Source: a virus. From it: a stretch of 32,288 bases of DNA. Under the pieces are notes generated by a model that was not told where the DNA came from, made no database searches, and saw only the letters and a list, made by a program, of their open reading frames with translations. How positions within the stretch are numbered: position 1 is the stretch's first letter; each line of letters opens with the position of its first letter. The stretch is from positions 1-32,288 of the IMG/VR virus record IMGVR_UViG_3300042391_000602, one strand, 5' to 3'. Positions 22,963-30,372 of this stretch are shown here, in pieces. The translations under genes were made by a program, and so were the position numbers.

Positions 22963-23259
22963 TTATAAATAATTAAGTGTTTTTAAATGAATTTCTGTTA
23001 ACTCGCTTTGGATGTCCGATATAAAACCGCTAACTGTATCGGCTTCATAAATGTTAATCGAGTTTTCGTGGTAACTGTGATCTACTTTCCATTTACTGCT
23101 TAATTCAATTTTGCAAGTGAATTTAACCTCGATGTAATTTTGTTTCTCAATTAGCGTAAATCTTAAATCTTTGTCCCGTTCAATGCGACCATTCTCGATT
23201 TCGTACAATTCAAATGTAGCATCTAATATGCCCTGAATGTAATGTTTGTTGATTATCAT
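22963..23259 (-). CDS. Hypothetical protein upstream of ERF (98 aa)
   Basis: The product (MIINKHYIQGILDATFELYE) has alternating strands and charged segments, such as LRFTLIEKQNYIEVKFTCK, and a C-terminal helix (ISDIQSELTEIHLKTL). It could be a recombination accessory protein, given its place between the ncRNA terminator and ERF. The start is three bases after the U-run of the ncRNA, so translation needs read-through of that terminator. Confidence 0.6.
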   Translation of the reverse strand: MIINKHYIQGILDATFELYEIENGRIERDKDLRFTLIEKQNYIEVKFTCKIELSSKWKVDHSYHENSINIYEADTVSGFISDIQSELTEIHLKTLNYL

Positions 23260-23261
23260 GT

Positions 23262-23350
23262 TTAAAAAAAAAGACCGCCATGAGGGATGACAGTCTAGTT
23301 TTAATAGATTAACCGGTATCTAAAAATTCCCTCAAATTCTTAGCGGCTTA
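23262..23350 (-). ncRNA. Two-hairpin kissing-loop RNA (type shared with 27944-28029)
   Basis: A -7 box TATATTTG on the minus strand (23351-23358) would start an RNA of about 90 nt. Its first hairpin has arms 23335-23343 and 23320-23328 (nine pairs, one G-U) around loop TGAGGG. The second is a terminator: arms 23287-23296 and 23272-23281 (ten pairs, two G-U), loop CCCTC, then a run of nine U ending three bases before the next ATG. The terminator loop is complementary to GAGGG in the first loop. I infer a kissing complex. Function unknown; it may be an sRNA or a leader controlling read-through into the ERF operon. Confidence 0.65.
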
Positions 23351-23382
23351 CAAATATATAATTAATTATTTAGATAAAAAAA
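23351..23382 (-). promoter_or_regulatory. Promoter of the minus-strand ncRNA/ERF operon
   Basis: The minus strand carries TATATTTG (23351-23358), a full -7 match. Twenty bases upstream (23379-23382) is TTTT rather than TTTG. The -7 box follows directly after the stop of the preceding gene (23389). Confidence 0.6.
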
Positions 23383-27810: not shown

Positions 27811-27896
27811 TCAATCCGTTATTCCGTTGTAAGTGTTGGTATCAGTACAAAGCAATCCGTTGTTAAAGCGTTATTAATCCGTTATAAGCGTTATTT
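27811..27896 (+). repeat. Iteron-like repeats, putative origin of replication
   Basis: CCGTT occurs four times (27816, 27824, 27857, 27879) in related contexts: AATCCGTTAT, ATTCCGTTGTAAGTGTT, AATCCGTTGTTAAAGCGTT and AATCCGTTATAAGCGTT. The last three units end in AGYGTT and are spaced by about 2-3 helical turns. AGCGTT also occurs at 27767-27772. Direct repeats next to a primase-helicase gene are typical of phage or plasmid origins, so this is a candidate initiator-binding array. Confidence 0.55.
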
Positions 27897-27905
27897 AAAA
27901 ATAAA

Positions 27906-27937
27906 TTTGTTTATATTAAAAATGTTTTATATATTTG
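27906..27937 (+). promoter_or_regulatory. Promoter of the primase-helicase leader RNA
   Basis: TTTG (27906-27909), a 20-bp spacer, and TATATTTG (27930-27937) give a full Bacteroidota promoter. Transcription would start near 27942-27945, immediately before the structured RNA. Confidence 0.78.
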
Positions 27938-27943
27938 CAAAAG

Positions 27944-28029
27944 TTAAGGCATTGGTGGATGCTATCTAAATTAACTAAAGTATTAACCCATTGCTGAAGG
28001 AGCCACCACTCCAACGGCATGGGTTTTTT
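27944..28029 (+). ncRNA. Two-hairpin kissing-loop RNA (type shared with 23262-23350)
   Basis: Four bases after the likely start is a hairpin: GGCAT (27948-27952) with ATGCT (27959-27963), loop TGGTGG. A second, long hairpin spans 27985-28025: a seven-pair base (AACCCAT with ATGGGTT), a second stem, a 2x2 internal loop, then GGAG with CTCC, loop CCACCA (28003-28008), and six T. Loops TGGTGG and CCACCA are exactly complementary, so a kissing interaction is likely. The end lies six bases before the primase-helicase ATG. It may be a small RNA, a leader controlling primase-helicase expression, or a replication-control RNA. Confidence 0.68.
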
Positions 28030-28035
28030 AATTAT

Positions 28036-30372
28036 ATGAATGTAACAATATTTAAAAACTTACACAATACCAATACCCCTTTTATTAAGGATATTGATTT
28101 TATTTTAAATAGAATTAAAGTTGGTAAATCTAAATTGATAGTTGATGAAATTAGAAAGCAGCCAACTAAAGAATTAGCAGATGAAATAAAGGCAACTCTT
28201 CCGGCAATTTGTTTTTGTGGAATATTTATAAAAAGAGCAGATAGTTCCATTACGGAACATAGTGGGTTAGTTTGCCTTGACTTTGATAAATACGAATCAG
28301 TAAAATTATTAGATGCTGATTTAAAAATATTAAAAAAAGATAAATATACCTTTGCTATGTTTATTAGTCCAAGTGGAATAGGTATAAAGCTACTTGTTAA
28401 AATTCCTAAGGATATTGAGAATCATAAAAAGTATTTTGATGCTTTAGAGAAATATTATGATAATACTCACTTTGATACTACTTCTAAAAATATAAGCAGA
28501 ATTTGTTTTGAAAGCTACGATCCAAATATTTATATTAATAAAGATAGTGAATTATGGACTGAAAAGATTGAGGATGAACAATTTGATTATAGGTATCATG
28601 CGCCAACTATTAAATTAGAGAATGAAAGCGAAATTATAAAGCGTTTATGGTCCTGGTTTAATAAATCTTATTCAATGGCGAAAGGTAGCAGAAACCATAA
28701 CTTATTTATATTGGTATCGGCATTTAGTGATTATGGAATTAGTGAATCGGAAACTAACCGATTTTGTCACCAATTTATTACAAATGATTTTACTGCTAAC
28801 GAAATTGATAAAGTTATACGCTCAGCTTATTCAAAATGTAAAGCTAATTTTGGAATGAAGTTTTTTGAAGATAGTGAAACTTTAAAACAAATATCTATTA
28901 AATTAAAGGCAGGAACTACGATTAAAGAAATTAAGGAATCAATGCCAAATGTGGATGAAAGGGTATTGAATGAAATTAAAGAAAATGTAACTATAAATGA
29001 TTTTTGGGTACATACTAAAAAAGGTATTAAGATTGAGAATTATCTTTATAAGCTATGGTTAGAATCAAATGGTTTTTATAAATATTACCCTGAGAACTCT
29101 GAATCATTTATATTTGTTAAGGTTACTAATAATTTAATTGATAACACAAACGAAGTTAAGATTAAAGATTATGTATTAAATGAATTGTTAAAGCAAGGTG
29201 AGGATAAAGTTTATGAGTACATGGCAGGAACTCAAAAGTATTTTAAAGATGACTACCTTAATATATTAAGCGAATCAAATATATTTTTTAAAGAAGATAC
29301 TATTGATACTGGTTATATTTATTTTAGGAATGCTGCTGTAAAGGTTACAAATGATAATATTGAATTAATTGATTATTTAGAATTGGATGGTTTTGTATGG
29401 AAAAAGCACATTATTGATTTTGATTTTAAGATTACTGATAATATTAATTGTGACTTTAGTAAATTTATAGAATTAATATCAAATAAGAATACTGACAAAG
29501 TAAACTCAATTACTTCAACTATTGGTTATTTAATGCACTCTTTTAAAACTTCAGCAAATAATAAAGCTATTATATTAAACGATGAAACGATTAGCGAGAA
29601 TCCAAATGGCGGCAGCGGTAAGGGTATTTTTTGGAATGCACTAAGCAAAGTAAAAAGGGTTTCAGATATTAATGGTAAATCATTTAGTTTTGAAAAATCA
29701 TTCCCTTATCAAACAGTTTCAGCAGATACTCAGATATTAGTATTTGACGATGTACAAAAAAACTTTAAATTTGAAAATCTATTTAGCGTAATTACTGAGG
29801 GTATAACTTTAGAGAAAAAGAATAAGGATGCAATTAAGATACCAGTTAGCCGAAGTCCTAAAATAATTATAACAACTAATTATACTGTTGGTGGGGTTGG
29901 TGGATCATTTGAACGTAGAAAGTGGGAAATTGAGTTTAGTAGTTATTTTAGTCACAAACACACTCCCCTTAATGAGTTTGGTAGAATGTTCTTTGATGAA
30001 TGGAATAATAACGAATGGCTTAACTTTTATAATTACATGGTTAAATGCATGCAGATGTATTTAGTTAATGGATTGGTAAGTTATGAGTATGTGAACTTAG
30101 AAATAAGAAAGTACATTAAAGAAACTTCATTTGAATTTTATGAGTGGGCTAATAAAGATACTTTAAAAGAAAATGAAAGATTAAATAAAAATATGATCTA
30201 TAATATATTTATTGATGAATATCCTGACTTTAAAAAATATAACCTATCAACTAAGCGGTTTTGGGGGTGGGTTGAGAAATATTGTATATTTAACAAAATT
30301 GAATTAACTAAGGGCCAGGATAGTATGGGACAAAGATATATTGAATTAATAACTGATAATAATACATTTTAA
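28036..30372 (+). CDS. Primase-helicase (PrimPol-like N-terminus, SF3-type ATPase)
   Basis: The 778-residue start at ATG 28036 follows the terminator-like leader; an upstream in-frame TTG would read through the hairpin. Residues 75-165 carry the archaeo-eukaryotic primase-type signature of the BT4734/VirE-N family (VCLDFDKYE, SPSGIGIK, SRICFESYDP). A helical primase C-terminal region follows (about 215-275). Residues 525-530 (GGSGKG) are Walker A, 567-572 (ILVFDD) Walker B, and TTNY at 613 a sensor. RRKW at 627-630 suits the arginine finger. It should unwind the origin and synthesise primers. Confidence 0.9.
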   Translation: MNVTIFKNLHNTNTPFIKDIDFILNRIKVGKSKLIVDEIRKQPTKELADEIKATLPAICFCGIFIKRADSSITEHSGLVCLDFDKYESVKLLDADLKILKKDKYTFAMFISPSGIGIKLLVKIPKDIENHKKYFDALEKYYDNTHFDTTSKNISRICFESYDPNIYINKDSELWTEKIEDEQFDYRYHAPTIKLENESEIIKRLWSWFNKSYSMAKGSRNHNLFILVSAFSDYGISESETNRFCHQFITNDFTANEIDKVIRSAYSKCKANFGMKFFEDSETLKQISIKLKAGTTIKEIKESMPNVDERVLNEIKENVTINDFWVHTKKGIKIENYLYKLWLESNGFYKYYPENSESFIFVKVTNNLIDNTNEVKIKDYVLNELLKQGEDKVYEYMAGTQKYFKDDYLNILSESNIFFKEDTIDTGYIYFRNAAVKVTNDNIELIDYLELDGFVWKKHIIDFDFKITDNINCDFSKFIELISNKNTDKVNSITSTIGYLMHSFKTSANNKAIILNDETISENPNGGSGKGIFWNALSKVKRVSDINGKSFSFEKSFPYQTVSADTQILVFDDVQKNFKFENLFSVITEGITLEKKNKDAIKIPVSRSPKIIITTNYTVGGVGGSFERRKWEIEFSSYFSHKHTPLNEFGRMFFDEWNNNEWLNFYNYMVKCMQMYLVNGLVSYEYVNLEIRKYIKETSFEFYEWANKDTLKENERLNKNMIYNIFIDEYPDFKKYNLSTKRFWGWVEKYCIFNKIELTKGQDSMGQRYIELITDNNTF

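Follow-up and report, generated by a model that had tools for sequence, protein, structure and literature searches.

A structured leader lies immediately ahead of a primase/helicase-like gene in a 32,288-nt viral stretch (IMG/VR record IMGVR_UViG_3300042391_000602, positions 1 to 32,288; hereafter the window), and its two hairpins expose loops of complementary letters. The locus raises the question of whether these loops really pair and what such a contact could do between a promoter and a replication gene. It is very likely that the leader is a genuine control element of a kind not listed before. An earlier interpretation, made from the sequence without database searches, is partly supported: it had proposed that the loops kiss and set the dose of the replication gene, possibly as a small RNA acting in trans or as a copy-number RNA.

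Two leaders in the window

Direct reading of positions 27900-28040 recovered every part that the sequence-only reading had described. On the plus strand, the sequence at 27906-27937 is presumably a Bacteroidota-type promoter, judged by the consensus TTTG/TAnnTTTG; it consists of TTTG (27906-27909), a 20-bp gap and TATATTTG (27930-27937). The outer stem P1 (27942-27976; AGUUAA at 27942-27947 with UUAACU at 27971-27976), a part added here to the earlier description, encloses the 5' hairpin and an A-rich 3' bulge. The 5' hairpin P2 (GGCAU/AUGCU, 27948-27963), identified by reading, folding and covariation, carries the loop L1, UGGUGG, at 27953-27958. After a short linker comes the terminator hairpin P3 (27985-28025), whose helices AACCCAU/AUGGGUU and GCUG/CGGC and AA/AA internal loop were assigned by folding and covariation, and within it P3b (GGAG/CUCC) closes the loop L2, CCACCA, at 28003-28008. 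L1 and L2 are complementary at six of six positions. A tract of six U (28024-28029) and six further bases lead to the ATG at 28036 of the primase/helicase-like gene (28036-30372, 778 aa; BT4734-like_N; phrog_28855). The GC-rich hairpin followed immediately by a U-run is, by sequence, a predicted intrinsic terminator. RNAfold recovers both stems, pairing two bases of the first loop and thus drawing it with 4 nt; the fold beats 200 of 200 shuffles (z -2.99, and z -4.51 for the terminator alone). A leader-peptide attenuator is not indicated, the possible 12-codon open reading frame of the window leader being missing, by eye, in the homologous loci L003 and L008. Upstream of the leader, CCGTTGTTAAAGCGTTATTAATCCGTTATAAGCGTTATT-like repeat units at 27835-27900 are iteron candidates. 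They are common to L003, where the repeat-rich DNA right upstream of the leader is nearly identical, and by eye they resemble repeats upstream of L008-L012.

The sister element that had been named at 23262-23350 was confirmed on the minus strand. At 23264-23350 it is built as the element at 27942-28029 with other loops (UGAGGG/CCCUCA), whose complementarity extends to UGAGGGA/UCCCUCA. The promoter regions of the two are 80% identical over 41 nt, and sequence comparison places the -7 box TATATTTG of the second element at 23351-23358. Its 5' hairpin (23320-23343; folding and loop check) presents L1 at 23329-23334, and its terminator hairpin (23264-23296) has an L2 that includes UCCCUCA at 23281-23287 and a U-run at 23264-23272. 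Fold prediction backs these stems. Behind it, a gene for 98 aa (22963-23259, minus strand) comes first in a leftward series that includes Erf and Gp157 genes.

Loop-loop pairing among homologues

Within a single sequence, such complementarity is indistinguishable from chance: a loose scan of the window for hairpins with complementary loops and T5 gave 27 matches, against 22-49 per shuffled window (n=30). The pairing is taken as real because of homologues. A primase search returned 17 viral loci, and the upstream DNA was examined for 14. Homologues lacking complementary loops had been named beforehand as evidence against kissing, and the opposite was found. All seven leaders of P1/P2 type (L003, L004, L005, L008, L009, L011, L012) have complementary loops, mostly in other letters than the window and in five letter combinations; the pairs include GUAGAG/CUCUAC, GUGCAG/CUGCAC, CUGGAAG/CUUCCAG and UAGUGG/CCACUA. 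A U-tract of T5-T7 is kept in these homologues, which were found through protein similarity. At the other seven loci, the partner of the long terminator loop is a bare 5' strand (assigned by rule in L006, L010, L015 and L016 and by eye in L007, L014 and L019), and the gene that follows is either the primase or a small one preceding it. The pattern promoter, P1 and T-run matched 10 viral stretches, nine of which are the element, all nine with complementary loops (L106 and L110 judged by eye; four of the nine on contigs already in hand). A covariance model built without the kissing pairs gave one further out-of-sample match, at L006:9226-9318, with the loops UGGAGG/CCUCCA.

Across 13 related leaders, all 78 loop-loop cells of the kissing helix are Watson-Crick paired, with zero G-U, and five of the six pairs vary on both sides. 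Double-change cells number 28, compared with 7.9 in shuffles, and slid and shuffled controls fall far below the helix in both pairing and covariation score. P2 is 100% paired in the same 13 sequences, with both-side changes in its four pairs. Of the 15 non-E2 rows typed, 13 have a P1 of 4 bp or more, L009 and L011 being left with only 2 bp. Because MAFFT misaligned the loops of the 13 full leaders, covariation was counted on pieces cut by hand around the loops; such rows lean towards structure, a bias which the size of the effect makes unimportant for the kissing helix. Fully paired 6-nt loops, together with stems and a loop pairing that covary, are what is expected of a kissing-loop RNA, and the proposal that the loops kiss is strongly supported by complementarity and covariation across homologues.

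Occurrence in phages and downstream genes

A blind pattern that names no loop letter (TATATTTGYA, 50-80 nt, GGGTTTTTT, 3-30 nt, ATG) was run on the viral collection and matched at least 120 stretches; of the 105 distinct hits listed, 101 have a foldable terminator. In 48 of these 101, the terminator loop has a complement of at least 6 nt in the upstream leader, against 4.0 expected (maximum 9) from 200 leader shuffles and 3.0 (maximum 8) for swapped leaders, so that about four of the 48 are expected by chance. The other 53 foldable leaders among the matches listed are mostly simple short-loop terminators. Among ATG leaders at loci found through the primase or the 98-aa protein, 37 of 60 are complementary, against about 3 expected, a count inflated by homologues. 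Altogether, the 2.64 Mb of DNA fetched contains 116 elements, of which 103 are distinct. Their loop strings number 63, including trimmed versions of each other and a few due to chance; L210, L053 and L059 are examples of probable chance entries. The geometry of the 103 is narrow: 10 nt (IQR 9-13) from TTTG to L1, 42 nt (40-45) from the start of L1 to the start of L2 and 16 nt (15-17) from the end of L2 to the T-run. Stems of at least 3 bp occur at P2 in 92% and at P3b in 85% of elements, compared with 35% at random places.

In 347 kb of bacterial DNA, three ATG leaders were found, none complementary, and among 296 genomes from a single bacterial phylum the blind pattern had two matches, both without complementarity. 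Within the scope of these scans, the element, with its conserved pairing, geometry and order of promoter, terminator and gene, is confined to phage DNA. The RNA model R2 gave no match in the 296 genomes, which as an empty result without a control is little proof; it recovered four of 20 supplied virus or phage records, and all four contain the P1/P2 type. An alignment of the primase against genome contigs confirmed no relative, and four matches of the P1/P2 pattern in genome contigs were rejected as the element on inspection. Searches by blastn against named phages yielded chance matches only for the window element and none for two other elements.

The phages that carry the element are of Bacteroidota type, and cultured Flavobacterium phages are among them: 34 records of phages with the hosts LMO6 and LMO9 have a match, and the scanned records of phi46:1, P12024S, part of MW202828 and Leef_1 are without it. 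In elemoF, the element (GTGGAGG) stands just before leftward replication genes. In hattifnatt9-1, it precedes a NUMOD4 endonuclease gene between two early genes; in filifjonk9-1, 10 nt separate the same two genes, and both endonuclease and element are missing. Element and endonuclease therefore behave as one cassette. The insertion (L263:11945-12640 against the empty site of filifjonk9-1, L264:940-1060) comprises the homing endonuclease, the promoter and the kissing leader. A second element, at one locus with similar flanks in the LMO6/LMO9 phages, occurs with the loops GUGAGAC/GUCUCAC, GUGGAAC/GUUCCAC and GUGAGAAG/CUUCUCAC; between hattifnatt and mumin it differs in 10 of 102 letters, four of which are compensating loop letters. 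These phages offer natural loop alleles in one background, on which the effect of the tertiary contact on termination could be tested.

An open reading frame of at least 40 codons follows 77 of 85 elements. The largest downstream clusters, named by domain searches (single members by reading the sequences), are primase/helicase (11), NUMOD4/HNH (11), Lin1244/DUF6291-type (9), 98-aa (6) and GIY-YIG-type (6), and Pfam finds NUMOD4 in nine, HNH_3 in eight, GIY-YIG in six and NUMOD3 in five of 49 representatives. Behind the elements there are thus genes for primase/helicase, replication-type proteins and homing endonucleases.

Proposed docking at the terminator, alternatives and known systems

We consider it somewhat probable that the element is a cis-acting attenuator, in which the 5' end of the leader docks onto the terminator loop as the polymerase reaches the U-tract and locks the terminator. 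Transcription from the host-type promoter would yield some 85-90 nt of leader, closed off by an intrinsic terminator right before the gene, and since promoter, leader, terminator and start codon follow in this order, expression of the gene needs read-through. The apical loop of the terminator would be bound, over 6-13 bp, by the 5' hairpin or, in other lineages, by the bare 5' strand. Lying about 16 nt ahead of the U-tract, this loop should, by the dimensions of the exit channel, clear the polymerase at the moment when the enzyme arrives at the U-tract; the docked helix would stay outside the channel as the base stem of 7-9 bp closes inside. Docking would then lock the terminator so that most transcripts stop, and the replication protein or homing endonuclease would be made from a low share of read-through, or after the lock is opened. 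Termination, a docking that favours the stop, and any regulator are inferences; a control of termination ahead of the replication gene would fit the anatomy and the gene context.

A possible alternative, held more tentatively, is antitermination: L1 would grab the emerging L2 and hinder timely closure of the stem, making read-through the default and loss of docking the off state. The position of the loop would let it emerge during transcription of the U-tract, and a hairpin already strong alone would make a negative modulator sensible. The median hairpin energy is -17.1 kcal/mol for kissing and -12.4 kcal/mol for non-kissing terminators of the same scan, and hairpin strength shows no trade-off with kissing strength (rho 0.02). 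Docking is thus unneeded for hairpin stability, which is why a read-through-promoting role is kept at an appreciable, minor probability. Ordinary antiterminators overlap one arm of the terminator. Here, however, L2 is closed by the covarying P3b and makes its contact beyond the base stem, so that docking and a fully closed terminator look compatible; this favours the locked terminator. The terminator arm, from loop to stem end, is also longer in kissing than in non-kissing leaders of the same scan (17 vs 10 nt, p 3e-12), as expected if docking and a formed terminator coexist, and the loop is larger (8 vs 4).

Control in trans appears unlikely. Released leaders would pair with nascent leaders of like sequence and provide loop-specific copy-number or superinfection control, as the loops of plasmid antisense RNAs do. 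The near-identical L192 and L222 differ in 6 of 14 loop letters and 2 of 70 flank letters, loops differ within all 15 loci that have two or more elements, and L003 has other loops in a leader 63% identical to that of the window, ahead of a primase gene whose DNA is 94-96% identical. Differing loops within one locus are nevertheless expected by chance, in each RNA both loops are satisfied in cis, and over 148 similar pairs the loops diverge by 14.2% against 15.8% for the flanks, although gapped alignment may hide some divergence. The small RNA in trans that had been suggested found no backing, loop strings occurring 34 times elsewhere in the same contigs with 43 expected. Nor did the suggested replication copy-number RNA: many elements precede homing endonucleases, and the search for a Bacteroidota-type promoter on the opposite strand (TAnnTTTG, 27900-28500) found none, which leaves a replication-specific role unsupported.

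A role of the fold in the 5' UTR, in stabilizing the mRNA or in starting translation, with the U-run left open for ribosomes instead of ending a terminator, is quite improbable. The start codon lies 14 nt (median) downstream of the T-run start, and 6 of the 103 elements have a covarying third copy of L1 between U-run and ATG, both in favour of such a role; yet the GC-rich stem abutting U5-U7, which translation would not need, is kept in the P1/P2 homologues. Counts in ribosome-site windows (7 vs 3.1; 10 vs 3.2) were discarded, as those windows may contain the element itself. A DNA-level inverted repeat acting as a protein site, with half sites about 42 bp apart and so near four helical turns, is extremely improbable, since both half sites lie in hairpin loops with covarying stems and 63 loop strings cannot be the site of a single protein.

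To return to the cis-acting attenuator, several known systems resemble it in part. At gathering score, none of 4227 Rfam families matched the window and none matched 10 further loci; relaxed thresholds gave chance matches only, and the open-licence literature searched held no description of such an element. The nearest in its working is the cobalamin riboswitch (env8), where an upstream loop docks onto the loop of an expression-platform hairpin through the L5-L13 contact, and whose kissing loops are described as typically having five to seven Watson-Crick pairs (PMC10907184). The phage leader differs in its fully paired 6-nt loops without a bulge, in having no visible ligand core (the Rfam search found no cobalamin-binding core in the window) and in its decision hairpin, an intrinsic terminator instead of a hairpin bearing the ribosome-binding site. 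In pT181-type antisense attenuation, a terminator just before the replication gene is controlled by loop-loop contact. The phage leader shares both traits, but its contact lies within one RNA and no host-type opposite-strand promoter was found at 27900-28500. The HK022 put RNA is a two-hairpin phage leader acting on early operons, which lies upstream of terminators and includes none; compared by description, the present leader is alike in its two hairpins but contains the terminator. The C4 RNA immunity of P4 and P1 relies on pairing between RNAs to halt transcription ahead of replication genes. C4 RNA is listed as RF01695 (PMC2864571); pairing and position are alike, but the phage leader has no Rfam match and no trans-target signal. 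As a group, the elements appear to make up an extensive, hitherto unlisted class of phage regulatory RNA in which a tertiary contact covaries with unusual clarity. They stand ahead of mobile homing endonucleases and replication genes, and little is known of how transcription is controlled in the phylum to which these phages belong as parasites. Orthogonal parts for RNA-based control could be drawn from them.

Terminator interior and upstream leader pair over at least 7 nt in 27 of 72 primase homologues (L043, L062, L063, L064 and L075 being doubtful), against 8.05 (maximum 12) in shuffles. These pairings occur in several folds (L031 ACGAGCCATG, L050 AGTCCCATT, L053 AGTACCATT, L084 AACTACGACA, L099 AACTCCTACA). 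A stricter loop rule retains 8 of 78 primase leaders, and by the same rule 66 of the 78 are without a terminator leader. The sequences suggest that in primase leaders the contact, rather than any single fold, is kept. It is a rather doubtful extension that a leader whose 5' end pairs with its own terminator loop is a general phage principle, realized in several unrelated folds with variable loops as a private address; if true, homing-endonuclease cassettes and replication genes would carry self-contained dosage control free of cross-talk with relatives.

Three minor observations concern variant leaders. The third copy of L1 (AGGCAG, GAGCAG, CTTCGAC) is found in L085, L124, L145, L150, L209 and L220, an extra listed case resembling chance, and its place at the ribosome site is a hint that in those six elements control may extend to translation. 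A second phage leader family, with promoter, TTTCATAATTGATAGGTTAATTGTTAACGAG-like leader, UUCG-loop terminator and an ATG about 30 nt on, has no loop complement and was seen in L128, L133, L136, L157, L161, L170, L179, L185, L199 and others. Finally, the bare-strand primase leaders L006:4999, L007, L031 and L014-L016 contain a short open reading frame, often beginning MK, that starts from or just after the 5' pairing strand and whose end overlaps the primase ATG in L007 and L031; these leaders are a possible ribosome-sensing variant.
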